Shown: positions 3,339 to 47,280 of the stretch, one piece after another
How the letters are laid out: every line of letters starts with the position of its first letter
Position numbering within the stretch: position 1 is the stretch's first letter
Virus record (IMG/VR): IMGVR_UViG_3300025913_000011
Location: 1-47,280 of that record
Direction: 5' to 3' (one strand)
From: a virus
Length of the DNA stretch: 47,280 nucleotides
Notes under the pieces: model-generated
What the model saw: the letters and a program-made list of their open reading frames with translations, nothing else
What the model was told of the DNA's origin: nothing
Databases searched by the model: none
Made by a program: the position numbers and the translations under genes

Positions 3339-3962
3339 ATGGCACAGACCGGCGTAGTAACACTCCAGCTTTTCGACTTTCCCAAAGGCTCCGACAAGAT
3401 TCAGCACACGCTGATTCTCGAAGGCCCGTTGGTTATCGGCACATCGTCCACCGCAAACATCGCGATCACTGCATGGTCGATCACCTCGAACGTGCTGACC
3501 CTGACGGCGGCCAACTCGCTTACGACAGGGGGCGGGGATTCAATCACAGTCTCGGGATTCACAACCAGCACGTTCCTGAATGGCATTTACACCACCTCTT
3601 CGGCAACGAGCACAACCATCGTGGTTCCTTTGACTCACGCGAATGGATCGGGCACCGAGGCGGGAATTGCCGTCCTGACGCCGCAGTACATTACGGGCGG
3701 TCTGCCGATCACCTATGCTTTCACGAACTCGCAGGGCGCGACGGTTGTCCCTCCTCTCGGCTCGGGAGCCGTGCCGAAGTGGATTCAGGCCGTCTCGAAG
3801 AGCGGTGGAGCATTCAACTACAAGTTTGATCAGACGGTGACGCCGAACACGCTCCGGATCTACTCGGGCATCACAGAAGTGACCACCGCAACCAACATCA
3901 CCCCCGACACCATTGTTTACCGTGCTGAGTTCGCATACGACATCGGGAGCAACGGCTACTAA
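3339..3962 (+). CDS. Beta-sandwich virion protein with a recurrent Ig-like module
   Basis: 207 aa, acidic and Thr/Ser/Gly-rich. Residues about 45-110 hold a module of the form SNVLTLTAAN...GDSITVSGF...FLNGIY...TTIVVPLTHAN. This module recurs in the protein at 11798-12493 (which shares the hexapeptide PLTHAN) and in variant form in the tail hub at 3962-7870. The C-terminal 70 residues (KWIQAVSKSGGAFNYKFD) form another beta domain. It has no signal peptide. It is likely a tail or head-decoration protein; its stop overlaps the ATG of the hub gene (TAATG), indicating coupled translation. Confidence 0.55.
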   Translation: MAQTGVVTLQLFDFPKGSDKIQHTLILEGPLVIGTSSTANIAITAWSITSNVLTLTAANSLTTGGGDSITVSGFTTSTFLNGIYTTSSATSTTIVVPLTHANGSGTEAGIAVLTPQYITGGLPITYAFTNSQGATVVPPLGSGAVPKWIQAVSKSGGAFNYKFDQTVTPNTLRIYSGITEVTTATNITPDTIVYRAEFAYDIGSNGY

Positions 3963-6900
3963 TGCACGGAACGCAGGGAACTCCGGTTCCTTTGACAACC
4001 TGGGGAGGGCTGGTCACACTGGCTGGCCCTGACTCTCTGCCGGAAGGCGCAAGCCCTCGCTGCTATGACGTGGATTTTCTCGTAGGCAGTGCAAGGACTC
4101 GCGACGGACTGCGGAGTGTGTATACCTACGACCCAGCAGGAGAGCCAGTAGGGCCGAACGGCGCTACCCAAGCATCGTCGGCAACATGGACAAACCCCAA
4201 CGGAATTCTGCACCTCGACGCAAGCTATGCATCTTCGGCAGCGTTTCCGGCTTCCGGCAATCTCGACGTAACCAAGTTCTCCTTCGATCTGCCCTCAACA
4301 ACCTACGTACAAGGTTTTCAGATCAAGATCGCAGGCTACGCCAACACAACGACGAATGTGAATGTGCAACTGCTACGGAACGGGCTTCCGGTAGGAGTGG
4401 TCAAGAGCGTTGCTCTGCCATCGGCACCGGATACTGTGACACTCGGCTCTCTCTCTGACCTCTGGGGCGGGGCATTCACCTATGCAGATGTGAATAACAC
4501 GGCCTTCGGAGTGCGGATCACCGTCTCTTCGATCTTCTCTCTCGCCCAAGCCTATCTCGACAACGTGACAGTAAGCATCGGCACGGCGGTTGGAGACGCG
4601 AATTTCAAATTCATCACCACGTTCGTTACGCAGGATGGAGACATAAAGAACCTCTCTCTCGACGCCAATGGAAACTTCTTTGTTGAGGATGTGACGAATA
4701 ACCCCGGCGTGCTGGAACTGGCGCTTGCGGACGTGACGCCTGGATCGTATGCCGTAGGAGTGCAAGGCGAAGGCGTCGAGTACCTTGCTTTCAATAACGG
4801 CTTCACGGGCTCCGACATTCCACGGCAATATACCCCCGAATGGATCGACAAGATTACGCAGGTCGGCCCTGGAGCTTCGCCGGCATTCGCTCCCGGCCAA
4901 GCCTCTGCAAACACCTTCGACATCCTGACCATCACACAGCATCCGGCCATGTCGGACATCATCAACGCGGGGCACCTATCAGTCCTGCTACAGTCTGCAG
5001 GCCCGACTACAACGGCTCCGGGAAACGTCATCACGGTCGCATACTCGCCTTCGTTCTATGGCGGCTCACCGCATCCCGAAGCGGAAGACAGGACGCTGGT
5101 TGATGCGTTCAATTCCGGCGTTCCGGTCTACGTCTACATCTCAGGAACTCCGCTCTCGGCAGCGAATGGAACGTTTCTAGTCACCTCAGTCGGCAATGCA
5201 CAACCTCCGGGAGTAGATCACTTCCGCTACTACTTCACCGTCCAGGCGACAGGTATCGCCTACGCGCAATTCAACGACCAGGTTGGCCAGTATCAGATGT
5301 CCGTCGCGACCATGACGATGGCCGATCCGGTTCCAGGCTTGACGGTAGGGAATATCGTAACCATCGCTGGCACATCGGTGACGGACTACAACACCTCATG
5401 GCCAATTTCGCAGGCGATCAACTCGGCTTCAATGGCGATTACGAATACTTCTGTGACCGGAGGCGTGGCAACCTTCAATTACTCGGTAATCTCAGGCGCA
5501 AACCCCGCGACCGGGCAGCTAGTCACGATCACTGGCACGAACAATGCCGATGGTCAGCTGAATCTCGTCAATGCGACGATCGCAAGCTCCACTGGAGGCT
5601 CAACTGGGAGCTTCACCGTCGCAGTTTCAGCGCCAGACGCATCTTCTGTGCCTGAAAGCGGACAGGCAACCACCGCAGGCACCATCTTTGCCTTCGATCC
5701 CGGCCTGAACACGGTAGGAACCGGAACAAGCCCTATTTTTGGCGATTCGACAGGCGGAACCCTGACCTTTACCGGCGCGGCAGCTCAACTTATCGGCCCC
5801 GGCACTCGTCAAGGCACGGTTTTCTTTATCACGCGCAATGGATACTACACCGCGCCCGGTCCTCCAGTGACTTTTACCTGCCCCGACAACACTACGGCAA
5901 TTCTGGCGTCTCAGATCCCGATTGGACCGCCCAATGTAGTCGCGCGCGGAATTGCATTCACGGAAGCAGGGCAAAACGGCGTTCCGGGAGCCAATTTCTA
6001 CACCATTCCGACGCCTGTAACGTACATCGTGCAGAATGTGAGCTATACCGCGACGTCTTTGATCATCAACGACAACACTTCGACGTCTGCGAGCTTCTTT
6101 TTCACCGATTCCGTGCTCTTGAATGCGCAGGCGATCGATGTATATGGCTACAACCTCTTCAACCAGATTGAAATCGGCAATCCGGGCTGGATCACAGCTT
6201 ACTCGGATCGCAATTTCTACGGTCTCTGCCAGAACAAGGTGCAGAACTTCAACAATCTGAGCTTCGACGGAGGATATTTGCCTGGTGGCCAGATTCTCCC
6301 TCTCGGATGGAGCTCGCCTGATATTTACGGAAGCCTTCTGGTCTCGCCAATCTTCGGCAATTCCTACTACATCACCAACTCAACTACCGGTGAGCTTGCG
6401 GCGGCAGGGTCGATCTCGCAGACGGCTTACCAGGACGCCTATCAGCAGCCGATTATCAATCCAAACACTACGTACTCGATTCGGGTGACTGCCAGAATCC
6501 CATCCGGGAACACTGCGGGGGCGATCGTTGTTTCTTTGACTGCCAACGGCGTGAATTACGGGCAATTCCTGCTCCGGTTTTCATCCATGACGACCTCAAT
6601 GGCGATCTATACCGGAACTTTGCTGACGAACAAGTTCCTGACCGTCCCTCCCGCATTGATGCTCAACATGGAAGCCGCGACGTTGGGCGTCGGTGCGGAC
6701 GTCGAAATCGATCGCATCGAAATCTTCCCAACAGAGATTCCAATCCTGACCACAACGGTCTACGGCTCCTACGCGGGGCTTCCCGAGCAGGTGGACGGAG
6801 TAACCGGGCAAGGCAAGTTCACGAGCCAGAATCAGCAGCCGGTCAACGGTGCAGTGGTCATGTACGACACGTTCTACGGGCTCAAGGGAATCGGCCCCAA

Positions 6901-7870
6901 CGCTTCAATGTATTCGTGGCAGCAGAGCCCGAATCTTGAGCCTGCGGATTGGGATATTCCCGAAGTGGCGCAGCGATCTGGAGCCTCAGGACCGATGGCC
7001 TTTGACTTCGGAGAGCAGTGGATTGTCATGGCGTGCCGGAATGGGGTGTACCTCTACGAGGGCGGCCAGCCGGGCAAGATCATGCAGGAAATCTTCCAAG
7101 TGTGGGATGCCATCAACTGGAGCGCAGAGCAGACCATCTGGGTCAGGAATGATGTGACTGGGCGGAGACTCTTCATCGGCATTCCGCTGCCTACTCCGAA
7201 CTTCTGGCTTCCCGACGCTCCGGTCAATGCAAACCCGACCAGCCCCAACGTGATTCTCATGTTGAACTACCAAGGCATGGATACCGGACGAGAGATCGAG
7301 ATGATGCCCGGGATGCATACCACCATGTTCGGCACTCTGAACGCAATCGATATGCGAAGGAAATGGGCCCTCTGGCAGATTCCGAGTCCCTATGGGGCTA
7401 CAGTGCAGACCGCGACAGACAAAGCATTCTACATCTGCAATGGCAGAGCAAATTCGAAGGTCTACAAGCTTGACCCAACCATGCTGACCGATGACGGGCA
7501 GGCGATCGACTCGCTCTACACCACGGCTGGATTGGGAAGTCCTTCGAAGATGAAGGAGCAGCCGGAACTTGGCGCGTTCAATAAGCGCATTGGGTACATG
7601 AGTCTGAGAGCAACCGGAACAGAGAATCTGACTGTCCGCTTCCTGCCTGATACGTTGCTGGGCCCAGGAGATTCAACGGTCGGCTATAACGCATGGACGG
7701 TTCCGGGTGGATTCAATCTGACGCCGACTTGTCTCCGCGATTTGAGGGCATCGGTGAACTTCTTCGCTAATCGCGCCTTTGTGGAGTTTCGCGGAGCCGA
7801 CTTTGACGCTTCCATTCTGACTTTGTTTGTGCGCAAGGATGCCTGGTCAGCGCCGTGGGGGCCGAAGTGA
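3962..7870 (+). CDS. Large tail hub protein, P22 gp10-like N-terminus with inserted Ig-like modules
   Basis: 1302 aa, start ATG 3962 inside the previous stop. The N-terminus LVTLAGPDSLPEGASPRCYD followed by a VGSARTRDGLRSVYTY stretch is the pattern of short-tailed-phage hub and stabilisation proteins, where the chain first records ring residues and then a propeller. Residues about 310-575 contain at least three tandem beta modules (ISGTPLSAANGTFLVTSV; VTIAGTSV; VTITGTNNADGQ). The C-terminal 360 residues contain propeller-like WxxP and DWDIPE/WALWQIPSPYG segments. P22 gp10 is much shorter (472 aa), so this version is enlarged mainly by the inserted sandwich domains. It probably caps the portal-adaptor and holds spikes or fibres. 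Confidence 0.55.
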   Translation: MHGTQGTPVPLTTWGGLVTLAGPDSLPEGASPRCYDVDFLVGSARTRDGLRSVYTYDPAGEPVGPNGATQASSATWTNPNGILHLDASYASSAAFPASGNLDVTKFSFDLPSTTYVQGFQIKIAGYANTTTNVNVQLLRNGLPVGVVKSVALPSAPDTVTLGSLSDLWGGAFTYADVNNTAFGVRITVSSIFSLAQAYLDNVTVSIGTAVGDANFKFITTFVTQDGDIKNLSLDANGNFFVEDVTNNPGVLELALADVTPGSYAVGVQGEGVEYLAFNNGFTGSDIPRQYTPEWIDKITQVGPGASPAFAPGQASANTFDILTITQHPAMSDIINAGHLSVLLQSAGPTTTAPGNVITVAYSPSFYGGSPHPEAEDRTLVDAFNSGVPVYVYISGTPLSAANGTFLVTSVGNAQPPGVDHFRYYFTVQATGIAYAQFNDQVGQYQMSVATMTMADPVPGLTVGNIVTIAGTSVTDYNTSWPISQAINSASMAITNTSVTGGVATFNYSVISGANPATGQLVTITGTNNADGQLNLVNATIASSTGGSTGSFTVAVSAPDASSVPESGQATTAGTIFAFDPGLNTVGTGTSPIFGDSTGGTLTFTGAAAQLIGPGTRQGTVFFITRNGYYTAPGPPVTFTCPDNTTAILASQIPIGPPNVVARGIAFTEAGQNGVPGANFYTIPTPVTYIVQNVSYTATSLIINDNTSTSASFFFTDSVLLNAQAIDVYGYNLFNQIEIGNPGWITAYSDRNFYGLCQNKVQNFNNLSFDGGYLPGGQILPLGWSSPDIYGSLLVSPIFGNSYYITNSTTGELAAAGSISQTAYQDAYQQPIINPNTTYSIRVTARIPSGNTAGAIVVSLTANGVNYGQFLLRFSSMTTSMAIYTGTLLTNKFLTVPPALMLNMEAATLGVGADVEIDRIEIFPTEIPILTTTVYGSYAGLPEQVDGVTGQGKFTSQNQQPVNGAVVMYDTFYGLKGIGPNASMYSWQQSPNLEPADWDIPEVAQRSGASGPMAFDFGEQWIVMACRNGVYLYEGGQPGKIMQEIFQVWDAINWSAEQTIWVRNDVTGRRLFIGIPLPTPNFWLPDAPVNANPTSPNVILMLNYQGMDTGREIEMMPGMHTTMFGTLNAIDMRRKWALWQIPSPYGATVQTATDKAFYICNGRANSKVYKLDPTMLTDDGQAIDSLYTTAGLGSPSKMKEQPELGAFNKRIGYMSLRATGTENLTVRFLPDTLLGPGDSTVGYNAWTVPGGFNLTPTCLRDLRASVNFFANRAFVEFRGADFDASILTLFVRKDAWSAPWGPK

Positions 7871-11797: not shown

Positions 11798-12493
11798 ATG
11801 CCCGCATACATCAACTCCGCGTTTCAAGGTTCGCAACTGCTTGTCAGGGGCGTGGCCTCCTACCTGTTTGGTTCCTACAACTATAAGCAGGACAACACCA
11901 AACTGCTTATCTCAAACGTGGCGCTCACCTCAAACGTCGCTACGCTCACCGTGCAGATCGTTGGCGGAGAAGTGCCTCTGGTAGGCTCTCTGATTTCCGT
12001 CCAGCAGACCACATCTACCTCTGGCCTGTTCAACGTCAATCGCGTGGCTCTGGCCTCGGTCACCATCGATGCCACGACGGGCGCTGGAACGGTTACCTTC
12101 CCGCTTACCCATGCCAACGTGGTTTCGGCTGCCGACACGGGCTCTGCTGTAGTTGAGGTTCCTGAAAAGTCAGAAGCCCTGGCAGCGGGAGCTTCGATCG
12201 CAGTGGCTTGCACGATGCCATTCGCAGAGCAGTTCACCGTGCCGCTGGCGGTGACGTTTCCGGGTGGAGTTCTGCCGACAGCGGTGACAGTGACTCTTCA
12301 GGTTGCGCTCCACAACATTGACTCCGAATTCACGAACACAACGACTGCGGTGGTTGTTGCTACGGGCGCATACACGACAGGCAAGGGCCCCGTAGTCGAA
12401 GCGACCCTAGAGCGCGGGTACTTCTATCGCGTTCTTGTCTCCGGCCTCACTGCGGGCTCAGCTACCGGAATCATCGCGAAGATCGGCGGGTAA
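11798..12493 (+). CDS. Beta-sandwich tail protein with the recurrent PLTHAN module
   Basis: 231 aa; GGAAGGAAAGG precedes ATG 11798. The N-terminus YINSAFQGSQLLVRGVASYL is followed by a module LTSNVATLTVQIVGGE...PLVGSLISV...GTVTFPLTHAN (about residues 40-110) that matches the one in 3339-3962. A third part (residues 125-231) is another beta domain (AVACTMPFAEQFTVPLAV) that ends in GIIAKIGG. No signal peptide. Placed just before the fibre adaptor, it is probably a tail or fibre-base protein. Confidence 0.5.
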   Translation: MPAYINSAFQGSQLLVRGVASYLFGSYNYKQDNTKLLISNVALTSNVATLTVQIVGGEVPLVGSLISVQQTTSTSGLFNVNRVALASVTIDATTGAGTVTFPLTHANVVSAADTGSAVVEVPEKSEALAAGASIAVACTMPFAEQFTVPLAVTFPGGVLPTAVTVTLQVALHNIDSEFTNTTTAVVVATGAYTTGKGPVVEATLERGYFYRVLVSGLTAGSATGIIAKIGG

Positions 12494-12496
12494 AAG

Positions 12497-13087
12497 ATGG
12501 CACTGGCGCGGCGTGACGACTACCTAACGGATGCTCAGGGAAGAGCTTTAGCGGGGGCGCAGGTCTACTACTGCACTCAGCCGGCAGATGTGTCTTTGCT
12601 CCCCCCTTCTCCTCTGGCGGCGACGTTCAGCGATCTTAGCGGGACGCCGGAAGCGAACCCGCAAATCACGGATGGATTCGGGCACGCCATCGTGTACATG
12701 GACAATGGCCAGCTCTACACCATCGTCTACGTGCATCCGCTCTTTGGCCCCGATCCGCAATACAACAACCAGCCCATCATTGTGCTCAAGGATCAATCGC
12801 TCGGTGGGGGTGGGGGCGGAACGACCATCGCATCGTTCAAGGGAACCCCGACAGGCACCATCGACGGCACCAACAAGACCTTCACGGTGGTCAACGGAAC
12901 GATTCCTCTGACTACGCTGCCGACCCAGATTGAAGCATGGCTCAACTTCCCCCTGATTGAAGGGCTGGGATTCGCGCTGTCTCTGGTTGGAGGGCAGGTC
13001 AAGATCACCTACGCCAACGCACCTCAGCCTGCAAGCGACGGCAGCCCCGCTGACGCAATTTACGCGCAAGGATACACGCTCCTATGA
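12497..13087 (+). CDS. Tail fibre/tailspike adaptor-like protein
   Basis: 196 aa. The start ARRDDYLTDAQGRALAGAQV, followed by PLAATFSD, GTPEANPQITDGFGHAIVYM and GQLYTIVYVHPLF, is the layout of head-binding or adaptor domains at the N-terminus of spikes (name and columns, then fill value, then unit). A Gly6 linker (about residue 103) leads to a second domain (IEAWLNFPLIEGLGFAL). The ATG of the spike gene overlaps its stop (ATGA), so the two are made together. Probably the virion-anchoring partner of the spike that follows. Confidence 0.55.
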   Translation: MALARRDDYLTDAQGRALAGAQVYYCTQPADVSLLPPSPLAATFSDLSGTPEANPQITDGFGHAIVYMDNGQLYTIVYVHPLFGPDPQYNNQPIIVLKDQSLGGGGGGTTIASFKGTPTGTIDGTNKTFTVVNGTIPLTTLPTQIEAWLNFPLIEGLGFALSLVGGQVKITYANAPQPASDGSPADAIYAQGYTLL

Positions 13088-16000
13088 GAAAGCTATTGTT
13101 CGCCGTCTTCGCGCTGGCCCTCCCCGCGTTTTCGCAGGTCATCGACCCTCGCACGCAGATTAACTGGCCCCGCGTCTCTGGAAACGGTTCTCCGTTGTCG
13201 GCAGGGTTTGCCTGTACTGCGTCGAATTACGGGCAGATGTACACCGACAAATCCGGACCGCACTACTGGACATGCGCAAGTCCAGGCGGAACACCTACGT
13301 GGTATCAGGTGGATTCAGCAGGCGGCTCTTCGACGATCCTGCAGGTCAACGGCACCCCAACAACTCCCGTTTCGCCGGTAAATTTCAACGATACGACTCC
13401 CGCAGCTCCCACAGGCTTTCAGAACTGCAAATTCCAGCAGGACGGCACAGCCGATGTGTCCTGCTACGTCCCTGCGTCCAATCCTCCTTCCGTGCAGGAT
13501 CTGGTTGTCCCTCCCGACTCCAATCAAGGCATCTTCATTCCGTTCACGGTCTGCACCAAAGTTCCAGATAACGTGTCTCTGCTTGTCACGCAGACATGCA
13601 AAGGCGATTCCGGGTATCAGCAGACTATCCCGGGGGGGAATTTCAACCACAATGCGCACCCGTCCATCATCTTCTCGGTGCCCGATCCTACGCTCGTGGC
13701 TGCGCTTTCCGGTAAAACCATCGGAAGCATTTTCCTTGCGGCATGGAGCAGGCTTGGGGGAACGACCTCGGGAACCGTCAGCTGCTCTGCTACAGGACTC
13801 GGAACCACGTTAGTCCCAATCAGCGTTCCTTCGGGTTCGCAGAGCACGGTTTCGGTGCCTTCTCTGACCGGCCCCAACGTTTCGACGACAACCTGCACAC
13901 TGAATCAGTCGCAATCTGTCAATGGCGACTACGGCGATACGCAGATGTACCAATCAGGACTCTGGGTTGAGTACACCGGAACTCCTATTACTCCGACCAA
14001 TGCGCTCAATGCGCAGTACCCGCTGGTGTATTCGCTCGACGGCAATGCGCTCACGGTTTCTCCGTTCTTTCCTGACTACCTGTTTCCGCGCCTCTTTGCC
14101 AATCTTCCCTCCTCGGATAAGTGGCAGTTCAATCAGGCAGGCTATCCGACATTCGTAGTCAGCGACAACGACACGACGACGATCGGCAACCAGTGCCACG
14201 GAACCGGAACATCTACAGGGCCTCCATATTCGCTCTGCCAGATGGATGGAACAGGGGGATGGCTCTATGCAGGCACCTTCGGGGGCAGCGGTCCACCGGC
14301 TGTGTCTTCGGTAGATAGCCCGCTTGCCAGCCTCTCGATTTCTCCCAGTGCCGGGGCGGTGCACGCGGATATCAATCTAGGGCATTTCAATCACTGGAGT
14401 GCAAACCAGCAATTCGACGCCGGAATCAATCTCGGCGGTGCACACTCTGAAATCAACCTCAACGGATCAGGCGGTGCAAGCGGAGACTGCCTGAAGTCCT
14501 CGGGAGGCGGCAATACGCCGTTCTGGTCATCGAGTTGCGGAGGTGGGGGAACGGTAGGACCAGGCACGGTTGGGTTCCTTCCGAAGTTCTCTACGACCAC
14601 AACCATCGGCGACTCTCACATAGACGACGGCGCAACGACGTCGGGCCACGTCACCATCACCGAACCCGTGGACGTAAGCTCCACTGGCCCATCTCAGTTT
14701 GGCTTCACCTACAACGGCACTCCGCTGGTGCCGGGGTCAGCGACAACTGCGGTCTATGGAGTCAATTCCTCAGGCCAGGCAGTGGCATCGGAAGCGGCGG
14801 GGGCGGCATCGCGTATCTGCACTGCAGCGAATGCTGCGACGAACACGGGATGCCAAGGGTCCAGTAGCAGCGTTAGCGTCAACGGGTCCTCTGTATCCAG
14901 CCCGAACTTCAATGGCACGACTCCAGCCGCAGGATCGAATGGAAAGAACGTCACATGGCAGGCGTCCGGCTCAAGCGTAAGCGCCGAGATCGTAGGCGAC
15001 GGCAACGCTACCCATTACTTGGACGGAACCGGAAACTATTCAACCCCAGCGGGAGGTGGGGGAGGCGGCTACACCAACGTTACCGGCTCTGCCTCAGAAA
15101 CCACCGTAGCTCTGATCAACACGGCTTGTGGTTCAGGCACCTACTACGCGACCACTCCGCTCTCTATCGCAACTGGGGGCACGATTACCTGCCCTGTACA
15201 GTTCTCCAAAGCAGGATTGTGGACGATTGCCAGCGGGCAGACGGTGACCTTCTCGAAGCCCGTCAGCGAAACCGATGCACCCGCTCAGCACTTCGCTGGA
15301 TCGGGTGTAGTCGTATTTCCATTGCAGAACAATCTCCGCGCTGAGTGGTGGGGATACGTTGCAGATGGGAATCTCGGATCGAACACTGGCACAGATAACT
15401 ACCCAGCAGTCCAAGCAGCCATTACTGCAATGACGGCAGGAACGCTCAACTTCCCATGCGGATTTGCGCGGTTCACTTCCGGCACACCTACAGTCAGTGG
15501 CAAGTCGAATATTCAACTGAAAGGCTGCGTTCTGGGCGGCAACAACACGAATCAGACCACATGGTTTGCTTCGACCTCGACGCTTGGCAACGTGAAGTTC
15601 GCAGGGTCTTCGGGCGCGCATGACAAGTGGAACGGAATCGATTCAATCACCTTCGCTCGTGCTGTCGCTCCGTCCACCACGGCAGGGCAGGCGAGGGGTC
15701 TGGATGTTGAGTGGAACGAGGGTTTTGTTTGGCAGAATTCTCGCGTAGAAGATGCTGGCACCCAAGCAACATACTGGCTTTTCCCAGATGGCGCGTTCTC
15801 TGGGCACACCTCTTATGTCGCAGTCGAATGGGGCTTCAACGGCATTTCACCGGCTGCCGGAACATACTCCTGCTACTACATTGACGGCTCACAGGCTCTT
15901 TCTTCCTGGGTCACAGACCATCGCGGATGCCTGACGAATAACAAGGCCGATGGGACTCATATCTTTTATGGCGATAACTACTCCGGTCCGATCATGGAAG

Positions 16001-17406
16001 ACGTGATGTCGGACTGGTTTCAGACCTTCCAGATTACGACATCTGTTTTTGCCAATGTGACTCCGACTGGTGGATTTCAGAATGGCGACATCCACTACGT
16101 GCATTCTGTCTTCGATACAAACAAGGGTTCCGTAGTCAACCTCACGGGCCTGACCTCAGGGGGCGCTAACGTCAACTTCGACGAAGGGTGGTGCACGAAT
16201 AGCGGAACGCCGTATGGCTTTGAGATTCATTCCTCTCAGGGGATTCACCTATCTAACTTCGAACTGTCTCAGTGTGGCACGACAGCCTCGGCGTACTTTG
16301 ATTCAAGTACGCGCGTTTCGTTCACGAACAACCATTGCGATACGGTGATCAGTAGTTTCGCCGGATGTCTGAAGGTCAACGCGACCAGCGCCAGCGTGTT
16401 CACCGGCAACGACGCAATCGGGAACAGCGCATCGGCCACCCTATTCGACTTCACCGGATCAAGCAACAACACGGTGCAGGGCAATGTCCTGACTGGCACG
16501 GCGTCCATCGGCATCCACTTCGACGCGACCAGCAACACCAACAACGCCTCTTACCTGAACAAGATCATCTCTGCATCAATCACCACACCGGTGTCAGACT
16601 CGGGCAGCGGAAACAACGCGATCTCGGTAGCGGCAGCGACCATTACCGGGCAGGCAGCGGCAAGCGGAAACAACTGCCTTCAGATCGATACCTCTGGAGT
16701 GGTTACGAAGACAGGCTCGGGTTGCGGGGCTTCTTCATCTCCCTACCCGCTCTTCCAGAAGTACGCTTACGTGGCGGAAACCAACTCAACCCCCGTAGCG
16801 TCAATTACCGCTGGTCCCATCACTGTATCTACAACCGACCTTCTCGTTGCTTTCTGCCGGACGGGAAGCACGGGCACCACCAGCATCACAGTGACCGATA
16901 CGCTGGCTAACACATGGACGCCCATCGGCTCCGCGATTGGAACCAATCCATCTATCGCAATGGCATGGACCAAATCAACCTCGTCCGGCTCGGATAGCTT
17001 CACCTGCACGCCGAACGCAACCGCAGCCTTTCAATCGGCAATCGTCGTGGATTATCAGGTGCAGTCTGTTCCCACTCTCCATACCTCGGCATTCGGAGCA
17101 GAGGGCACGAACACAATGTTTACCAGCGGAACGTTCTCGACTACGGTTCGCACGCTTGCAATCGCCTGCTGGACGGGCGGCTCAGGAACCAGCTTCCCAC
17201 AGATCGCGCAGATTGGCGGGAGTCCTGGCCGTCTCAGGGCTGTGGCAGCAAGTGGGATCAACACTGCGGCTGACGCTGGATGCGCTGATGCGGTTCTGGA
17301 GGCTCCTGTATTCACAGGCACGGTGCAGGGGTACTTGTCGCCGAACTTCCCTTACGCAACCTCCAACCTTCCGGGGAACTCGGCAGTGGCCGCGTTTACT
17401 TACTGA
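13084..17406 (+). CDS. Large tailspike-like protein with Sec signal peptide and beta-helix
   Basis: 1440 aa. Residues 1-18 (MRKLLFAVFALALPAFSQ) are a good Sec signal peptide with a cleavage site near AFS. Residues 20-80 carry a conserved WPxVSGNGSPL motif and Cys pairs. The middle to about 750 is low-complexity, Ser/Gly/Thr-rich with repeated VNGS/SPNFNGTTPA units. Residues about 753-1190 start with VADGNLGSNTGTDNYPAVQA, the entry motif of pectate-lyase-type right-handed beta-helices, and continue with Asn-rich rungs (NTVQGNVLTGTASIGIHFD). Residues 1225-1440 form a beta-rich lectin-like domain. Likely host-surface glycan binding or cleavage. A signal peptide is unusual for a virion protein. 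Confidence 0.6.
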   Translation: MRKLLFAVFALALPAFSQVIDPRTQINWPRVSGNGSPLSAGFACTASNYGQMYTDKSGPHYWTCASPGGTPTWYQVDSAGGSSTILQVNGTPTTPVSPVNFNDTTPAAPTGFQNCKFQQDGTADVSCYVPASNPPSVQDLVVPPDSNQGIFIPFTVCTKVPDNVSLLVTQTCKGDSGYQQTIPGGNFNHNAHPSIIFSVPDPTLVAALSGKTIGSIFLAAWSRLGGTTSGTVSCSATGLGTTLVPISVPSGSQSTVSVPSLTGPNVSTTTCTLNQSQSVNGDYGDTQMYQSGLWVEYTGTPITPTNALNAQYPLVYSLDGNALTVSPFFPDYLFPRLFANLPSSDKWQFNQAGYPTFVVSDNDTTTIGNQCHGTGTSTGPPYSLCQMDGTGGWLYAGTFGGSGPPAVSSVDSPLASLSISPSAGAVHADINLGHFNHWSANQQFDAGINLGGAHSEINLNGSGGASGDCLKSSGGGNTPFWSSSCGGGGTVGPGTVGFLPKFSTTTTIGDSHIDDGATTSGHVTITEPVDVSSTGPSQFGFTYNGTPLVPGSATTAVYGVNSSGQAVASEAAGAASRICTAANAATNTGCQGSSSSVSVNGSSVSSPNFNGTTPAAGSNGKNVTWQASGSSVSAEIVGDGNATHYLDGTGNYSTPAGGGGGGYTNVTGSASETTVALINTACGSGTYYATTPLSIATGGTITCPVQFSKAGLWTIASGQTVTFSKPVSETDAPAQHFAGSGVVVFPLQNNLRAEWWGYVADGNLGSNTGTDNYPAVQAAITAMTAGTLNFPCGFARFTSGTPTVSGKSNIQLKGCVLGGNNTNQTTWFASTSTLGNVKFAGSSGAHDKWNGIDSITFARAVAPSTTAGQARGLDVEWNEGFVWQNSRVEDAGTQATYWLFPDGAFSGHTSYVAVEWGFNGISPAAGTYSCYYIDGSQALSSWVTDHRGCLTNNKADGTHIFYGDNYSGPIMEDVMSDWFQTFQITTSVFANVTPTGGFQNGDIHYVHSVFDTNKGSVVNLTGLTSGGANVNFDEGWCTNSGTPYGFEIHSSQGIHLSNFELSQCGTTASAYFDSSTRVSFTNNHCDTVISSFAGCLKVNATSASVFTGNDAIGNSASATLFDFTGSSNNTVQGNVLTGTASIGIHFDATSNTNNASYLNKIISASITTPVSDSGSGNNAISVAAATITGQAAASGNNCLQIDTSGVVTKTGSGCGASSSPYPLFQKYAYVAETNSTPVASITAGPITVSTTDLLVAFCRTGSTGTTSITVTDTLANTWTPIGSAIGTNPSIAMAWTKSTSSGSDSFTCTPNATAAFQSAIVVDYQVQSVPTLHTSAFGAEGTNTMFTSGTFSTTVRTLAIACWTGGSGTSFPQIAQIGGSPGRLRAVAASGINTAADAGCADAVLEAPVFTGTVQGYLSPNFPYATSNLPGNSAVAAFTY

Positions 17407-18140
17407 TGAGCAACTGCAATCAAATTCGCGCTGATGGGATGAGTGAGCGCAGCTGCGCCAATGCCGGAAACGGCAACCACGCGCCACGCGCAACCCACGG
17501 CGAATTGCAGACCACTTCGAGTCACAGCCATCGCCGCGTTGACCACCGGATTTCTTACCGGAGACACGCGGTCATGGCCTCGCACGACGCGCTCCACCTG
17601 GAAGCCAGCGTTTTCGAGAACAAAGGACAAGGATTCTCTGGTGAAGAGGAAGTGATGTGTCCAGTCAATGTAGCGGGCATAGGAAGCCAGCGGCCAAAGA
17701 GCGTTCGGGACCTGGCAGACCAGCCTTCCACTTGGCTTCAGGGCGGTTCGGATTCCGCTCAGCAAATCAATCTGGCTGTCGCGCGGCACGTGCTCCAGAA
17801 CGTCGATAAGAGTTACCGCGTCGAACTCTCCCGCACGGCTCAACAGATACGGAAGAACGTCAGGGACAGCGATTCTCTGCACGGGCAGACCTTGCTTGTG
17901 CGCGAGATCGACCTGACCTGGATCGGCGTCGATTCCCTCTGCTGTGTATCCGGCCTTCATAAGCGCATTCAGCAGAAATCCGGCCCCACAGCCAACGTCA
18001 AGGATGCGTGCGGGAGCAGGCGGAAAGTGCTTCAGGAACGGCTTATAGGAACGAGCCATGCTTGCGTAATAGGCATCGCTGAACTGATGAAGTCTTCGGT
18101 AGTGGAGGGTGTAATCGAGCATGTCTAAGTTCAGGCCCAT
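17400..18140 (-). CDS. Class I SAM-dependent methyltransferase, inserted antisense between spike genes
   Basis: 246 aa from ATG 18140 (a second in-frame ATG is at 18122). Motif I ILDVGCGAGF (residues 46-55), the acidic end of strand 2 GIDADP (69-74), motif FDAVTLIDVLEHVPRD (106-121) and LKPSGRLVCQVPN are all present. This is the UbiG/glycan-methyltransferase style. The long aromatic segment around FLFTRESLSFVLENAGFQVE is the usual C-terminal half. Its stop overlaps the spike stop and its start overlaps the next spike start by about 20 bp. It is a moron-like insert, most plausibly altering host surface glycans in the lysogen or modifying the receptor; target not visible. Confidence 0.8.
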   Translation of the reverse strand: MGLNLDMLDYTLHYRRLHQFSDAYYASMARSYKPFLKHFPPAPARILDVGCGAGFLLNALMKAGYTAEGIDADPGQVDLAHKQGLPVQRIAVPDVLPYLLSRAGEFDAVTLIDVLEHVPRDSQIDLLSGIRTALKPSGRLVCQVPNALWPLASYARYIDWTHHFLFTRESLSFVLENAGFQVERVVRGHDRVSPVRNPVVNAAMAVTRSGLQFAVGCAWRVVAVSGIGAAALTHPISANLIAVAHQ

Positions 18141-20805
18141 CAGTCTAGCACTCTGCCTCCTTGCTCCTCTACCACTTTTAGGTCAGTTCTCCACCGTCTC
18201 CTGTACGCACGGGGAAACGGGAACCTGTCGGCAAGCAACAACCTGCAATCAATCGGACGTTCAGGCAGCAATCAACGCTTCTTCGACCGGTACAGACGGC
18301 TACATTAGCCCGACGAGCTTTCATGGGGATGGGGTGTATGTTCCGAGCGGGTCCTGCTCATGGGGAACTGCCGTTTCTTGGACCGACAAAAATATCAACC
18401 TGATCGGTGCGAATCCCACCATCGCAGCCTCCGATTATTCATGGCGGGTTAGGGTTACCGGAGCGGCGGGGAATCACCAGTCAACAGCAGCAGCCTTCAG
18501 AATCTCGGGCTTCACTCAGAGCAGTGGGCACGTCCTGAACATCAACTCCTCTAACCCCGACATGACCACATGGGCAGGGTTCTACCGTGTCGATAACATC
18601 ACCTACACGGCAACAGGCGGCGGCAATGCCATCAACGTCTACGGGCCTGTGTATGGCGTGTTCGATCACTTGAACGGCACTGCGTCGGGGATGAATCACT
18701 TCGAGCAGTCGATGTACCTGAACTCTGAATTTCCGCCTTCGGCCACAGTAGTTCTAGGTGAGACAGTCGGCAGAACATTCGCGGCGGGACTTGGAACACA
18801 GAACTTCGTCTTTATCGAAGATTCAACTTTTAACTGCTCGGGAAGCTACGGATCGGGTGCCTTATCGGATTCCGAGTCCGGCCCTCAGCGCATGGTCTTC
18901 CGCCACAACACGGTGACCGGAACCTGCTACCACTACGCGCACTGGACGCGCAATGGCGAGTGGGATGGCGGCGTGATGGAGATCTACAACAACAACTACG
19001 CCTGCACTGGCTCAGGATGCTCGGGAGGGTACTTCGCGCGATTCCAGGCAGGAACGGGAGTTGCGTTCAATAACACGGTCACTGGTTACGGCGTGACTTC
19101 CATTCAGATCGATGAGCTTCGCGGTGCGGGTTCGCAGACTGGAGGAATTGTCGGAGAATGCGCCGGGAGTCCACCAGGCAACTCGCAGTTTGATGTGAAC
19201 GCGGGAGACACGAACGCCCCGGGCTGGCCTTGTGCCGGGCAGGTGGGAACGGCATGTATTGCCGGAAGCTGTTCGCGCTCCTCGATGAATTCAGTTCCCT
19301 TCATCATCTGGAATAACGGCACTCAGTCGGGATGCTCGACAGGCGGAAGCTGCACCAACTCAGTGGCGTTCAATCTCGACGTCACGGGCACGCCCCGCAA
19401 TATGGCGAACTACCTCAAAAGCACTGCACATTCTCTGGCAGGGCCTTACAACGGAGCGGTTGACTATTTTTCAGGTTCAGCTAAGCCGTCGAGCGTCGGT
19501 ATCTATACCGGCATCGGCTCGTATGCGCCTTTCACCTACCCCTACCCGACTACCACAGGTGGCGGAGGCGGCCCATTCGCCCTCACAGTCACAACAACTC
19601 ATACTTCGGTAAGTGGCCCTAACTGTTCTACGGGCTCCCGCCCATCAGGAACGGTTATTGGCCCTTGCACAGCCACGCCAGACACGGGCTACAGCTTTGC
19701 GCCGGGATGGTCTGGTGCGTGTTCAGGAACGGGCCTTTGCGGTCCTTTCCCGTTGTCCTCGAATACGTCGCTTGCAGCAACCTCCACGATCAATTCATGG
19801 CTGCTTTCCACGGCCATTGGTGGCTCGGGTTCGGGCACGATCGTATGCACTCCCGCAGCCGGTTCAACCGTCAACTATGGCACTCCGGTGTCCTGCACCA
19901 TCACCCCCGCAGCCGGTTCAACGGTCACATCGGTGACAGGCGGTGGAGGAACATGGACGAGCAACCCCTACCTGTTCAACATGCCGAACAGCGCCGCTAC
20001 AGTAACAGCAACCTTTGCGCTGAATACCTACACCTTCGCAGTCTCAACCGCAGGCACAGGCACCGGCAATCTGACAGGCCTCAACTGCGTAAATGGCACC
20101 TATAACTACCTGACCAATATCTCCTGCTCTGCCACGGCAACGTCAGGCACGTTCGTCGGCTATACGGGCACGGGTTCAGCTTCAGGCTGCTCTGGGAGTC
20201 CATGCGCTCTCTCGATTGGTGCTAATTCAACTCTGCAGGCGACCTTCTCGCTTAGAGCCGCAACCCCGACATTCTCGCCGGTAGCAGGCGCATACGGCGC
20301 AACGCAGAATGTGACCATCTCGACAACCACCGGGGGAGCCACGCTGCGCTATACGACCAGCGGAGTCGATCCGACCTGCTCGACGGGCACGGTCTATTCA
20401 ACACCTGTCTCTGTAGCGTCTTCGCTCACTCTCAAAGCAATCGCCTGCGCATCCGGCTATTTAGATTCAGTGGTTGGTTCGGCAGCGTACACAATCAACG
20501 GCACTGCGGCTGCTCCGACCTTCAGCCCTGTAGCAGGGACCTACACCTCCGTGCAGTCAGTGACGTCGAGCACGGGAACCTCTGCTTGTGCGAGTTTCCT
20601 CTACATCGGCACAGTCAACCCCCCAACTTCGCTTGGAAACACGATCTCAGTGGCAACTTCGGAGACGGTCTACTCCTACGTGCACAACTGCCCGGGATAC
20701 TCCGACTCGACGGTTTCAAGCGCAGCCTACGTCATCAACCTGCCGACAGTCTCGGTATCGATCTCAGGCACAGTCAAGATCTCGGGCACAGTGACACTTC
20801 AATAG
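18121..20805 (+). CDS. Second secreted spike/adhesin: beta-helix, InlB-like repeats, chitobiase C-terminal-like domains
   Basis: 894 aa; GGAGG precedes ATG 18121. Residues 1-21 (PISLALCLLAPLPLLGQ at the end) are a Sec signal peptide. Residues about 30-440 are a Cys-containing parallel beta-helix (NINLIGANPTI, FNNTVTGYGVTSIQIDEL). Residues about 490-700 hold InlB-B-like repeats (ITPAAGSTVTSVTGGGG). Residues about 710-880 are two CHB_HEX_C-like units (TPTFSPVAGAYGATQNVTIS; APTFSPVAGTYTSVQSV), a domain family found on secreted carbohydrate-active proteins. The end, SISGTVKISGTVTLQ, is a short tandem repeat. Likely surface adhesin, spike or a secreted factor. Confidence 0.58.
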   Translation: MSKFRPISLALCLLAPLPLLGQFSTVSCTHGETGTCRQATTCNQSDVQAAINASSTGTDGYISPTSFHGDGVYVPSGSCSWGTAVSWTDKNINLIGANPTIAASDYSWRVRVTGAAGNHQSTAAAFRISGFTQSSGHVLNINSSNPDMTTWAGFYRVDNITYTATGGGNAINVYGPVYGVFDHLNGTASGMNHFEQSMYLNSEFPPSATVVLGETVGRTFAAGLGTQNFVFIEDSTFNCSGSYGSGALSDSESGPQRMVFRHNTVTGTCYHYAHWTRNGEWDGGVMEIYNNNYACTGSGCSGGYFARFQAGTGVAFNNTVTGYGVTSIQIDELRGAGSQTGGIVGECAGSPPGNSQFDVNAGDTNAPGWPCAGQVGTACIAGSCSRSSMNSVPFIIWNNGTQSGCSTGGSCTNSVAFNLDVTGTPRNMANYLKSTAHSLAGPYNGAVDYFSGSAKPSSVGIYTGIGSYAPFTYPYPTTTGGGGGPFALTVTTTHTSVSGPNCSTGSRPSGTVIGPCTATPDTGYSFAPGWSGACSGTGLCGPFPLSSNTSLAATSTINSWLLSTAIGGSGSGTIVCTPAAGSTVNYGTPVSCTITPAAGSTVTSVTGGGGTWTSNPYLFNMPNSAATVTATFALNTYTFAVSTAGTGTGNLTGLNCVNGTYNYLTNISCSATATSGTFVGYTGTGSASGCSGSPCALSIGANSTLQATFSLRAATPTFSPVAGAYGATQNVTISTTTGGATLRYTTSGVDPTCSTGTVYSTPVSVASSLTLKAIACASGYLDSVVGSAAYTINGTAAAPTFSPVAGTYTSVQSVTSSTGTSACASFLYIGTVNPPTSLGNTISVATSETVYSYVHNCPGYSDSTVSSAAYVINLPTVSVSISGTVKISGTVTLQ

Positions 20806-20812
20806 GAGACAT

Positions 20813-21178
20813 ATGAAGAAACTTTCCATCCTCGCGACGATCTTTACCCTGGCACTGGCTTGCGGTGCAGCGCTCCCGCAATCCGGCCACACGGTCACCA
20901 TCAACGTCACAGCGACTGCTCCCGGCACAGCAACCGTGCTCAGAGCGGACGGGCTGTGTCCTGCGACATCTACCCCCTCCTCGGGTACGACGCTCACCAG
21001 CACGCTCTCCGTGCCTACAGCGGGCACTGCGGTGCCCTACAACGACACCACGGTAGTCGATGGAAATTCCTACTGCTACTGGTCAACCTTCAAGGCAACA
21101 GGAGGTGGCAGCGCTGTCTCCAATACCTTTCTCGGTCAAATCGGCGTCACAGTGTCCATCTCAGGGCTGGTTAAGTAA
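20813..21178 (+). CDS. Small secreted Ig-like protein sharing C-terminal motif with previous gene
   Basis: 121 aa; GGAGACAT precedes ATG 20813, 7 nt after the spike stop. Residues 1-21 are a signal peptide (KKLSILATIFTLALACGAAL); the Cys at 17 does not fit a strict lipobox. The mature part is a Thr/Ser-rich beta-sandwich of about 95 residues with two Cys. It ends VTVSISGLVK, close to SVSISGTVK in the preceding protein, suggesting a shared final strand or assembly tag. Probably acts with the spike at the cell surface. Confidence 0.5.
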   Translation: MKKLSILATIFTLALACGAALPQSGHTVTINVTATAPGTATVLRADGLCPATSTPSSGTTLTSTLSVPTAGTAVPYNDTTVVDGNSYCYWSTFKATGGGSAVSNTFLGQIGVTVSISGLVK

Positions 21179-22702: not shown

Positions 22703-22900
22703 ATGCGATTGTCCGACTGGAAGTGGGAGTACGAGTGCGAACCGAGCGACGACATTGTGCTAGCTGCCGCTTATCTCGAAGCGCGAGGTTTGCAATTCCT
22801 AAGCGATTTCGGCTTGGACAACGCCGTGGTGAAGGCTGAGGCACGCATGAGATTGGAGGCAATGGAATGTGGGTCTACAACTCCTCCAACGGAAGCCTGA
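22703..22900 (+). CDS. 65-aa small acidic protein of unknown function
   Basis: ATG 22703 follows CGGGGAGATGAC. Acidic, helical, with WKWEYECEPSDD near the start. The last 34 nt overlap the lysin gene in another frame, so its end may regulate lysin translation. No family recognised. Confidence 0.45.
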   Translation: MRLSDWKWEYECEPSDDIVLAAAYLEARGLQFLSDFGLDNAVVKAEARMRLEAMECGSTTPPTEA

Positions 22901-23229
22901 TTCGCAACGGGATCATTGTCGGCACTGGGTATTCGGGTCACCAGGCAGGCGTCAACAACCCTGAAATGGAGTCGATTCACAACACCGGGCCCATCCCAAG
23001 GGGGAGCTGGACGATCAGCCAGTTCTTCGACGATCCGGGCGGAAAAGGCCCTCTGGTAGCACGGCTGAGCCCCGATGAAGGAACAGAGACGTTCGGCAGG
23101 GGCGGCTTCATGATCCACGGCGACAACGCCATGCATAACGAGGGTGCAAGCTACGGCTGCATCATTCTGGCACGGTCACTCAGGGAGCAGATCGCCACAT
23201 CGGGCGACTGTATTTTGCAGGTTGTGTAA
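22867..23229 (+). CDS. Endolysin candidate, L,D-transpeptidase/DUF2778-like
   Basis: 120 aa, ATG 22867 inside the preceding gene. The motif GGFMIHGDNAMHNEGASYGC (H84, S95, G97, C98) is the HG...SxGC active-site signature of YkuD/DUF2778-type L,D-transpeptidases and -carboxypeptidases, with C98 as the probable nucleophile. NTGPIPRGSWTI (39-50) is the typical preceding strand of DUF2778-type proteins. No signal peptide, so a holin or another route is needed to reach peptidoglycan. It is followed by a holin-like gene. No lysozyme, amidase or transglycosylase is visible elsewhere in the phage, so this is the best lysin candidate. Confidence 0.65.
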   Translation: MWVYNSSNGSLIRNGIIVGTGYSGHQAGVNNPEMESIHNTGPIPRGSWTISQFFDDPGGKGPLVARLSPDEGTETFGRGGFMIHGDNAMHNEGASYGCIILARSLREQIATSGDCILQVV

Positions 23230-23237
23230 GGAGAAAT

Positions 23238-23489
23238 ATGAACTGGAAAGCATGGCTTCACTCACTGGTAGCAGCGGCCATATCTAGCGCGGCGTCTGGC
23301 GTCACGCTAGTGATCGTGGCTCCTGATTCCTTCAACTTCACTTCCGCTGGACTGAGCAAGCTTGCTACCGTCTGCGGGGTCAATGCGCTGGTTGCGGTTG
23401 CTGGCTATCTGAAGCAATCCCCGCTGCCAACAGCGACCGAAACCGTAACCACCACCGTCACCGCAACTCAGGAGACAACCAAACCATGA
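23238..23489 (+). CDS. Holin (two membrane spans)
   Basis: 83 aa; AGGAGAAAT precedes ATG 23238. Two hydrophobic spans are predicted (WLHSLVAAAISSAASGVTLV and KLATVCGVNALVAVAGYL) joined by a short Pro/Asp/Asn loop, with a Thr-rich hydrophilic tail. This is the usual two-span phage holin layout. It lies directly after the lysin candidate and its stop overlaps the lipoprotein start, forming a lysis cassette. Confidence 0.7.
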   Translation: MNWKAWLHSLVAAAISSAASGVTLVIVAPDSFNFTSAGLSKLATVCGVNALVAVAGYLKQSPLPTATETVTTTVTATQETTKP

Positions 23490-23932
23490 ACAGAAACTAC
23501 GCTCAGAAAGTGCTCTTGCTGATCGTCCTGGGGGTCGTAGCGGCTCCCATCATCGGATGCCCAGCCGGAACCCAGCAATCCGCTGCCAAAGCTTCACTAC
23601 AGGTCACCGTAGTGATGCAGTCAGCACAGCAGGGCGAAATTGCAGCCCACAACTCAGGCCTGATCCCTGACGCAGAGCATCAGTTTATTCAGCATCAGTT
23701 CATCTCGCTTGCCGAAGCAGACAAGGCCGCAAACGCCTGCATCGCTGCTGCCCCAAACAAAGGAGCGGTCATTGCCTGCCTTCAGACGGCAGTTAACACC
23801 GTGGACTCGATCAACCAGGAGGGCGGAACGTTCTTGAAGTCGCCGGCGGCTCAGGCGAACTTCACTCTTGCTCTGACCAGCATCAAGTCCATCCTGCAAA
23901 CCATTGAAGTGACTCTCGGAGGTGCGCAATGA
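23486..23932 (+). CDS. Lipoprotein of the lysis module, possible outer spanin
   Basis: 148 aa, ATGA overlap with the holin gene. Residues 1-25 are a lipoprotein signal (VLLLIVLGVVAAPIIGC, lipid Cys at 25). The mature part is Ala/Gln-rich and mostly helical, with two more Cys (about residues 89 and 101). Being a lipoprotein next to a holin fits an outer-membrane spanin or lysis accessory role, but outer spanins are usually shorter and Pro-rich, so the call is tentative. Confidence 0.5.
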   Translation: MNRNYAQKVLLLIVLGVVAAPIIGCPAGTQQSAAKASLQVTVVMQSAQQGEIAAHNSGLIPDAEHQFIQHQFISLAEADKAANACIAAAPNKGAVIACLQTAVNTVDSINQEGGTFLKSPAAQANFTLALTSIKSILQTIEVTLGGAQ

Positions 23933-45793: not shown

Positions 45794-47149
45794 ATGGCAA
45801 ACCCGATGACAGAACTGGCCGCAGAGGCCATTGAACTCGATGCGTGGGTGGAAGAGATCCCTGACTATCAGGCGCATTTCGACCGCTTCCTGACCCGCCT
45901 TGAAAAAGGCGCTCACAAAATTAACATCTCCAACAACACCACGGGCGGCGGAACAACCCGCTCTCCGATGCGTGTGCCTTTCCGTGCGCAGGGCGGCGGC
46001 GGCATCCAGCAGTTCGCTGCGGATACAGCCGGAACCGTGGCCATCTGGCAGCGCGGTACGGGTTCGACCTACGACGGCTTTGTGGCCGCCCCGGTTCGGC
46101 TCGTCAACGTGTGCGAAATTTCAAACCTTGCGCAGCAGGCAACAGACGGCAAAGACAGAGGCCTGGTCAAGATCAAGCGCGAAGAGCTCCAGAACACGCT
46201 CAAGGCGTTCGACAACCAGGTTGAGGGCATCATTCACCGTGACGGCTCCGGCACAATCGACCAGATCCCAACCACGGCAACGGTTAACAACGCGACGGGC
46301 GGCGGGACCATCGGCACCGCAACCTATTCGAGCATCGTTGGGCTGAACACTGCGGCATCCTTCCAGGATCAGCAGACCGTTCAAGTGCTTTCGGCAGTCG
46401 GCGGAACGAATCGCGGCTCTTTCACGATCTCCTACGTCGATCCGGTTTCGCAGACCATTTACTCGACCACAGCTCTGCCTTCGGGAACCACCACGGGCGA
46501 TCTGCTGGTCGTGAATGGCGCTGCGGGAACAGCCGGCACGTCGATTCTCGGCAAGGATTACTGGCTGCAAAACGGCAACACCGGCACCATCGGTGGAATC
46601 GCCAAGGCCAACTATCCCGGACGTCTGAGCACGCCAACCATCAACTTCGGCGGCAATGGAGCCATCACCAACTCCACAGCGCAGAGGATTGAAGCCATTC
46701 GCATGCGTGCGATGGGCGACGACTACGACGCGAACAAGTCGTGCTTCTGGCTGGCCAACCCGTCCCAGGGCGTGACACTGAGCAATCAGTTCTACAATCC
46801 CGGATTCACCCGGCTCGATGAGGGTTCGAAGGACTACGTTCCCGACACGGCACGCAAGATGATGCAGAAAACCGTGCTGGGCGAGGATGTGGTCTGGGCA
46901 ACCACCGCAGAGCCGACCCGCATGGACCTGATCGTGCCGGATACCTGGTACTTCGGCGAACTGTTCCCGACCCGCTTGCATGAGTGGACCCCCGGAAACA
47001 CCATCGCTGCAGTTCCCGCCATCGGCGCGGCTGCTGGAAGCACCTACTACGACTCGCAGATGTTTGCCTACGAGCGCGGATTCCAGCTGGTCTGCAACGA
47101 CCCGAAACAGAACTTCTATCTTTCCAATCTCCCGGTTGTCAGCCTGTAA
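45794..47149 (+). CDS. Major capsid protein (HK97 fold)
   Basis: 451 aa, ATG 45794. The N-arm MANPMTELAAEAIELDAWVE leads to HINISN-type strand and VAIWQRGTGSTYDGFVAAPV. A long spine helix follows (KDRGLVKIKREELQNTLKAF). Residues about 170-240 are a beta-rich insertion (QTVQVLSAVGGTNRGSF, SQTIYSTTALPSGTTTGD) like those of capsids with an I-type domain. RIEAIRMRAMGDDYDANKSC and the A-domain end (TYYDSQMFAYERGFQLVCND) close the fold. The stop is followed by the strong hairpin and the GroES-like gene. Confidence 0.85.
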   Translation: MANPMTELAAEAIELDAWVEEIPDYQAHFDRFLTRLEKGAHKINISNNTTGGGTTRSPMRVPFRAQGGGGIQQFAADTAGTVAIWQRGTGSTYDGFVAAPVRLVNVCEISNLAQQATDGKDRGLVKIKREELQNTLKAFDNQVEGIIHRDGSGTIDQIPTTATVNNATGGGTIGTATYSSIVGLNTAASFQDQQTVQVLSAVGGTNRGSFTISYVDPVSQTIYSTTALPSGTTTGDLLVVNGAAGTAGTSILGKDYWLQNGNTGTIGGIAKANYPGRLSTPTINFGGNGAITNSTAQRIEAIRMRAMGDDYDANKSCFWLANPSQGVTLSNQFYNPGFTRLDEGSKDYVPDTARKMMQKTVLGEDVVWATTAEPTRMDLIVPDTWYFGELFPTRLHEWTPGNTIAAVPAIGAAAGSTYYDSQMFAYERGFQLVCNDPKQNFYLSNLPVVSL

Positions 47150-47153
47150 CCCT

Positions 47154-47280
47154 TAACCGCTTGGGGGTGAGCGCATCACCCCCGGAATTTGAGAGACATG
47201 CTAGAGACATTCCTTGATGTATTGCTGATTGAGGAAATTCCGGTAGAGAACGCAACGGATACCGGGATTGTGGGCGCAAA
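47154..47280. repeat. Right copy of 127-bp terminal direct repeat
   Basis: Identical to bases 1-127. Contains the hairpin after the capsid gene (47163-47183) and the first bases of the GroES-like gene (ATG 47198), so this end should be merged with the left end. The true junction lies inside the capsid-GroES gap. Confidence 0.95.

Follow-up and report, generated by a model that had tools for sequence, protein, structure and literature searches.

The spike-like proteins, probably serving in host recognition, and the adhesins of a group of Acidobacteriota phages from soil are, judged by their sequences, very probably exported via the Sec pathway. Assembly of tailed phages is taught as a cytoplasmic process that is complete before lysis. 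With nearly all spikes of the group exported, either tailed virions would be completable outside the cytoplasm, or phages would routinely secrete large, disulfide-rich, glycan-binding proteins while infecting a dominant soil phylum.

The window, that is, the whole stretch of DNA that was analysed, is an entire IMG/VR virus record of 47.3 kb. A terminal repeat of 127 bp at its ends (1-127 and 47154-47280) establishes that the record is complete, and with the encoded integrase and large terminase it identifies the window as a complete temperate virus, probably of the short-tailed type. The end repeat of record G018 is also 127 bp long, and those of G007 and G014 are 77 and 98 bp. Neither the putative spike (SPIKE) nor the adhesin-like protein (ADH) has direct relatives in the viral contig collection, on direct scans, or in 50,697 phage records. 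Relatives were recruited via a 1302-aa tail-block protein (3962-7870) and the major capsid candidate (45794-47149), and 33 additional virus records, some of them fragments, were fetched; capsid protein identity across them ranges from 83% down to 23%. Neither recruiting protein matches Pfam or PHROGs, the 1302-aa protein has no match among the 50,697 phage records, and the group seems to be absent from cultured phages.

The 1302-aa protein was found on three contigs binned in Acidobacteria metagenome-assembled genomes, and among 396 Acidobacteriota genomes sampled one more carries the phage, on a 63-kb contig (G308:C158). Because this contig runs on into ordinary bacterial genes, named from our reading of their sequences, the phage on it is an integrated prophage of the group. 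Together, the binned contigs and the prophage make Acidobacteriota a well-supported host phylum. Two records, G010 (L033-L035) and G011 (L036-L037), are near-identical viruses from two metagenomes; the 1302-aa homologue of G011 is broken into two ORFs and so represents a frameshifted or misassembled copy.

Signal peptides in the window and its relatives

Signal peptides were called with a self-written rule (a positive n-region, a 9-residue uncharged h-region and a [AVGSCTIL]-x-[AGSC] cleavage site), and several gene starts were set by hand for these calls. With N-termini whose residues 2-41 had been shuffled, the rule fired in 0.9% of cases (134/14,800); among real genes it fired on 43 of 740. 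Three genes in the window had been read from the letters alone as beginning with Sec signal peptides; their ORFs lie exactly as described, and the rule fires on all three. SPIKE (13084..17406, + strand), an ORF of 1440 aa, is a putative exported tail spike. Its predicted signal peptide (13084..13134, +), which is conserved in place in relatives, is MRKLLFAVFALALPAFS, with cleavage before QVID. ADH (18121..20805, +; 894 aa) was recognised as an exported adhesin-like protein by its Pfam domains and cysteines; its predicted signal (18121..18183, +) is MSKFRPISLALCLLAPLPLLG, cleaved before QFST, and its homologue in G005 has one of the same type. The third gene, IG121 (20813..21178, +), encodes a small exported protein of 121 aa. 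Its signal (20813..20860, +) is MKKLSILATIFTLALA, followed by CGAA, the cleavage point being uncertain; the G005 homologue is 57% identical and has its own signal peptide, ending ..GFAFG before QSGHTV. Shuffles of the protein's own N-terminus reached the observed score 95 times for SPIKE, 304 times for ADH and 139 times for IG121, each per 20,000. The three gene starts are credible on sequence grounds, since the ATG of SPIKE shares bases with the stop codon of the preceding gene (ATGA), AGGAG lies 5-6 nt upstream of IG121 and GGAGGG lies about 11 nt upstream of ADH. The label 'Ig-like', once given to the 121-aa protein, found no support in Pfam or NCBIfam.

The Pfam domains of ADH, namely CHB_HEX_C_1 (chitobiase C-terminal), Flg_new_2 (InlB B-repeat) and Fn3_assoc (Fn3-associated), are typical of secreted bacterial proteins, and the ADH-type protein of G005 has a weak Beta_helix match. 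By Pfam, no outer-membrane barrel, lipobox or transmembrane anchor was found in the exported proteins. The maximum 19-residue hydropathy past the signal is 1.27-1.37, so that no hydrophobic segment follows it.

The spike gene bears a signal in 16 records, and the sole exception among records with a recognisable spike gene is G023. Signal-bearing spike-like genes occur in G000, G001, G003, G005, G007, G008, G010, G014, G015, G016, G018, G019, G020 and G022 and in the prophage of G308; the major capsid proteins of signal-bearing records are as little as 23-45% identical. The gene that follows the 196-aa adaptor-like gene begins with a signal and usually overlaps the adaptor stop codon, as with MRLKKTLALLLFASPLLG (G005), MKKLAILLLLSVSAFA (G007), MKKILITALFLFSLPVLA (G010) and MRSIFTSLAMLCVALGAAA (G003), each followed by Q, and a comparable signal in G008; in the prophage, the gene after the adaptor reads ..FGSGCAQSALA, then QAINLGPQVKGVLP. 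The signal in G014, again followed by Q, is MRKLLLLLLFAYPCFA. The gene upstream of the signal-bearing gene in G014 is another small late gene rather than a standalone adaptor. The spike of G001 lies elsewhere in the structural block and has kept its signal, and a second G014 spike, also elsewhere in that block, has one too; the signal persists when the spike body is swapped or the gene relocated. Many genomes have signal-bearing genes in tandem (five consecutively in G010), and in most of the signal-bearing set the predicted site is mostly -x-[A/S/G] followed by Q. From these comparisons, the signal is a rule of the group rather than a local oddity.

Among proteins of at least 300 aa, the rule called 20 of the 29 that are spike-like, a class selected by composition only, versus 6 of 254 others (Fisher p 8e-19). 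Conserved core families gave 4 calls in 364, every one doubtful. Four of the nine uncalled spike-like proteins (in G001, G005 and two in G015) bear a signal on a hand-judged start or h-region, and three (G004, G024 and G023_17) resemble ordinary structural proteins. The remaining two, G023_12 and G023_14, are real exceptions: they are spike-like, lack a signal and lie among structural genes. Given these G023 proteins, export is not obligatory in the group.

G023 also encodes a GroEL-type chaperonin (PF00118, E 5e-62); the stretches concerned are L113 9284-13942 (G023) and L114 3754-5331. Chaperonin homologues occur in G021 and G029, fragments in which no spike genes were seen, and none was found in records with exported spikes. 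Chaperonin and export are possibly two ways to fold difficult spikes; the numbers are small.

Cysteines of the mature proteins

Cysteines were counted on mature proteins, with the signal removed, in 27 exported proteins, a set that is partly hand-curated and includes some related members. Their median cysteine content is 2.07%, compared with 0.68% in conserved core families, which are mostly structural (p 2e-12). The mature cysteine number is even in 25 of the 27 (p 3e-6), versus 164 of 312 (53%) proteins without a signal; removal of signal-peptide cysteines alters the parity of several proteins, and on whole proteins, several of them with cysteines in the signal and one a false call, only 13 of 21 are even. 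Proteins exported by Gram-negative bacteria are known to favour even cysteine numbers (PMC7678975). Gaps within consecutive pairs are shorter than gaps between pairs in 24 of 24 exported proteins, a result matched by 0 of 5000 permutations, whereas proteins without a signal show no effect (38/76). The 30 mature cysteines of SPIKE form 15 consecutive local pairs (e.g. 44-64, 115-127, 157-172, 234-271 and 371-385); ADH has 28, and two additional prophage proteins have 20 and 4. The cultured spikes T7 gp17, P22 gp9 and KP34 gp57, to which the spikes described here have no sequence similarity, contain 0.3-1.3% cysteine.

This signature is independent of the signal predictor. The density, even parity and local pairing of cysteines in the mature proteins suggest that the signals are functional, and the pattern argues that the exported set folds in an oxidising compartment, with local disulfides.

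The spike body and neighbouring genes

SPIKE lies downstream of the conserved tail block, as the corresponding genes do in most relatives. A conserved late protein of 231 aa (11798..12493, +), with 41-61% identity over nearly its full length in most relatives, precedes a tail-fibre-adaptor-like protein of 196 aa (12497..13087, +), which was recognised by alignment, has no signal peptide and overlaps the SPIKE start with its stop. The adaptor-like gene is present in 8 of the first-fetched related records and in the prophage. The spikes are the most variable of the late genes, while the flanking tail genes keep 40-60% identity. In G014 and G016 an adaptor-like domain is seemingly fused behind the signal (weak pairwise hhalign matches, E 0.007 and 0.0007), and a similar fusion was seen by eye in G019. 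No standalone adaptor was detected in these three records; an adaptor HMM run against all proteins found standalone adaptors only and did not recover the proposed fusions.

Residues 1-532 of SPIKE align with the G005 spike at 34% identity, and residues 1209-1400 match a separate exported 251-aa protein of the prophage. The mature N-terminus begins with the motif QVIDPRTQINWP (13135..13170, +), comparable to QSPVNPTTQIQWG in G005 and QKVNPNTQIGWP in G010; this short motif is common to the three spikes, whose bodies differ. Signal peptide and motif are the only N-terminal stretch that SPIKE shares with the G010 spike (47%, residues 1-29). SPIKE matched nothing in Pfam, PHROGs, NCBIfam or the 50,697 phage records, and thus has no similarity to known spikes there; a PDB sequence search gave nothing significant (best E 0.45). 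AlphaFold2 run on single sequences, without homologues, gave pLDDT values of 32-33 for SPIKE 681-1206 and ADH 22-486. BLAST matches among spikes obtained without composition correction were low-complexity matches and were discarded. T7 gp17, P22 gp9 and KP34 gp57 are likewise large, late, host-specific proteins with a variable body; unlike the spikes described here, T7 gp17, P22 gp9 and KP34 gp49 and gp57 carry no signal peptide when tested.

Between SPIKE and ADH lies a reversed class I SAM methyltransferase gene (17400..18140, -; Pfam Methyltransf_23, E 4e-24; NCBIfam match below cut-off only), and the + strand ORF at 17406-18128 is spurious. The gene is missing at the same place in G005, and it is a candidate glycan-modifying moron. 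A reversed O-acyltransferase gene stands beside the spike of G008 (PF01757, E 7e-25; L010 22517-23641, -). By analogy, both resemble glycan-modifying genes of lysogenic (serotype) conversion such as the gtr genes of P22, and such neighbours would be in keeping with spikes that recognise glycans on the cell surface.

Downstream of the spike genes, three genes with signal-like N-termini (22867..23932, +) are the probable lysis genes, by position. They encode a Tlde1-domain protein (22867-23229, +; Pfam Tlde1_dom, E 4e-13), a small membrane protein (23238-23489, +) and a lipoprotein-like protein (23486-23932, +). The Tlde1 family is known from T6SS peptidoglycan effectors, and the protein is a candidate unusual endolysin. 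A Tlde1-domain protein also occupies the lysis-gene position in G016.

Docking at lysis and the alternatives

The Sec products of diderm hosts remain periplasmic unless another system carries them onward. The sequence-only reading had supposed that spikes, once exported, would be lost from the cell before assembly; for a diderm host this premise is wrong, as Sec leads to the periplasm, and no outer-membrane passage is indicated. Given where diderm Sec products stay, and with no outer-membrane module visible, the most economical reading is that the proteins are stored in the periplasm until lysis. We propose that the temperate phage expresses its Sec-exported spike and adhesin proteins late, and that their signal peptide would be cut at the -x-[A/S/G] site preceding Q. 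The spikes would fold with disulfides and be kept in the periplasm during the cytoplasmic assembly of DNA-filled particles. Once the products of the adjacent downstream lysis genes breach the membranes, the N-terminus of the mature spike (Q..NP.TQI.W or Q.INL.TQV.G.LP..NGG) may dock on the particle via the conserved adaptor-like protein. Export would separate spikes from assembling particles until release, and would permit disulfide-hardened spikes. That the exported spikes dock on the virion at all is about evenly balanced in our judgement, and we give similar weight to storage of the late-made spikes and adhesins in the periplasm with docking at lysis. For the whole group, a scheme in which spikes are Sec-exported, disulfide-bonded, periplasmic and added at or after lysis, the tail being finished outside the cytoplasm, is put forward somewhat more tentatively.

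A role on the virion is favoured by the coupling to the adaptor gene, the variability of spikes within a conserved late block, the conserved motif after the cleavage site, the apparent signal-adaptor fusions and the match of the SPIKE C-terminal region to a separate exported prophage protein, and also because no other receptor-binding candidate is evident in these phages. It is weakened by the secreted-enzyme-like domains of ADH and of an exported G001 protein, which contains a GDSL lipase domain, and by the signal-less spike-like proteins of G023. The main rival, a serious if less probable possibility, builds on the former: the proteins would be exported and never join the virion, acting as late secreted glycan-active enzymes or adhesins released in infection or lysis, such as exopolysaccharide depolymerases, decoys, cell-debris binders or auxiliary carbohydrate-active proteins. 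The whole export evidence fits this equally; the chitobiase C-terminal, Fn3-associated and InlB-type domains, the lipase domain and the rows of genes in some genomes (five in G010) speak for it. Soil viruses do encode active carbohydrate enzymes, as shown by an auxiliary viral chitosanase (PMC9485262). That system too is a soil virus, and polysaccharide-related domains occur in ADH and G001; here, however, the signal-bearing cassette sits within the tail block across a virus group, and a text search of PMC9485262 found no discussion of signal peptides, secretion or tails. Secretion alone would leave the phages without a receptor-binding candidate, and it sits poorly with the overlap of spike start codons with the adaptor gene and the apparent fusions of adaptor-like domains to the signal in three records. 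Loading after lysis, one option of the sequence-only reading, is the one we favour, while sequence cannot decide between it and plain secretion.

Lysogenic conversion, in which prophage-expressed surface or secreted proteins alter adhesion or block superinfection, would suit the integrase, the prophage in a bacterial contig and the reversed gene next to the spike, a methyltransferase in the window and an O-acyltransferase in G008. We consider it unlikely, as SPIKE runs in the same direction as the tail block and is coupled to it; the earlier suggestion of a lysogen surface protein is likewise weakened by the late, ATGA-coupled position near a tail gene and by the lack, by Pfam, of an anchor or outer-membrane domain and of a hydrophobic segment after the signal. 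Known tailed-phage spikes, those of T7, P22 and KP34 among them, assemble in the cytoplasm, which, with the late gene position, would be in keeping with an uncleaved signal serving virion spikes as a cytoplasmic or inner-membrane assembly tag. This proposal is disfavoured, and we hold it to be very unlikely, because the mature spikes have the even, paired cysteines of an oxidising compartment, absent from cytoplasmic controls, and because textbook cleavage sites occur in most of the set. With so simple a rule as predictor, wrong starts or chance hydrophobic N-termini might be suspected; conservation of the signal across divergent records and the prophage, the low shuffle rate and the predictor-independent cysteine signature have already largely refuted such an artefact, whose probability we put close to nil.

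We know of no tailed phage that loads exported spikes after lysis, and our searches of the open-access literature turned up no description of tailed-phage spikes with signal peptides; in papers on phiCbK, JC1, JG068, Loki and PfDIW6, such peptides come up solely in connection with lysis proteins or among the methods. Filamentous phages have virion proteins with signal peptides (pIII and pVIII), assembled from the membrane or periplasm, but they extrude without lysis, whereas the phage described here is tailed and has a terminase, a tail block and lysis genes. Sec-exported endolysins, such as fOg44 Lys44 with its signal peptide and the SAR endolysins, establish that a late phage protein can use host Sec before lysis (PMC6116005); these are lysis enzymes and never virion parts, in contrast to the spike- and adhesin-like passengers described here.

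Docking of the exported spikes, if shown, would amount to a new way of assembling tailed phages. Their export would explain why annotation misses the spikes of these phages, and the combination of a signal peptide with the motif Q..NP.TQI.W or TQV.G.LP..NGG behind it is suggested as a marker of spike genes in uncultivated viruses. The prophage on contig G308:C158 (L133, L134, L136 and L137) offers a possible way to a culturable system.
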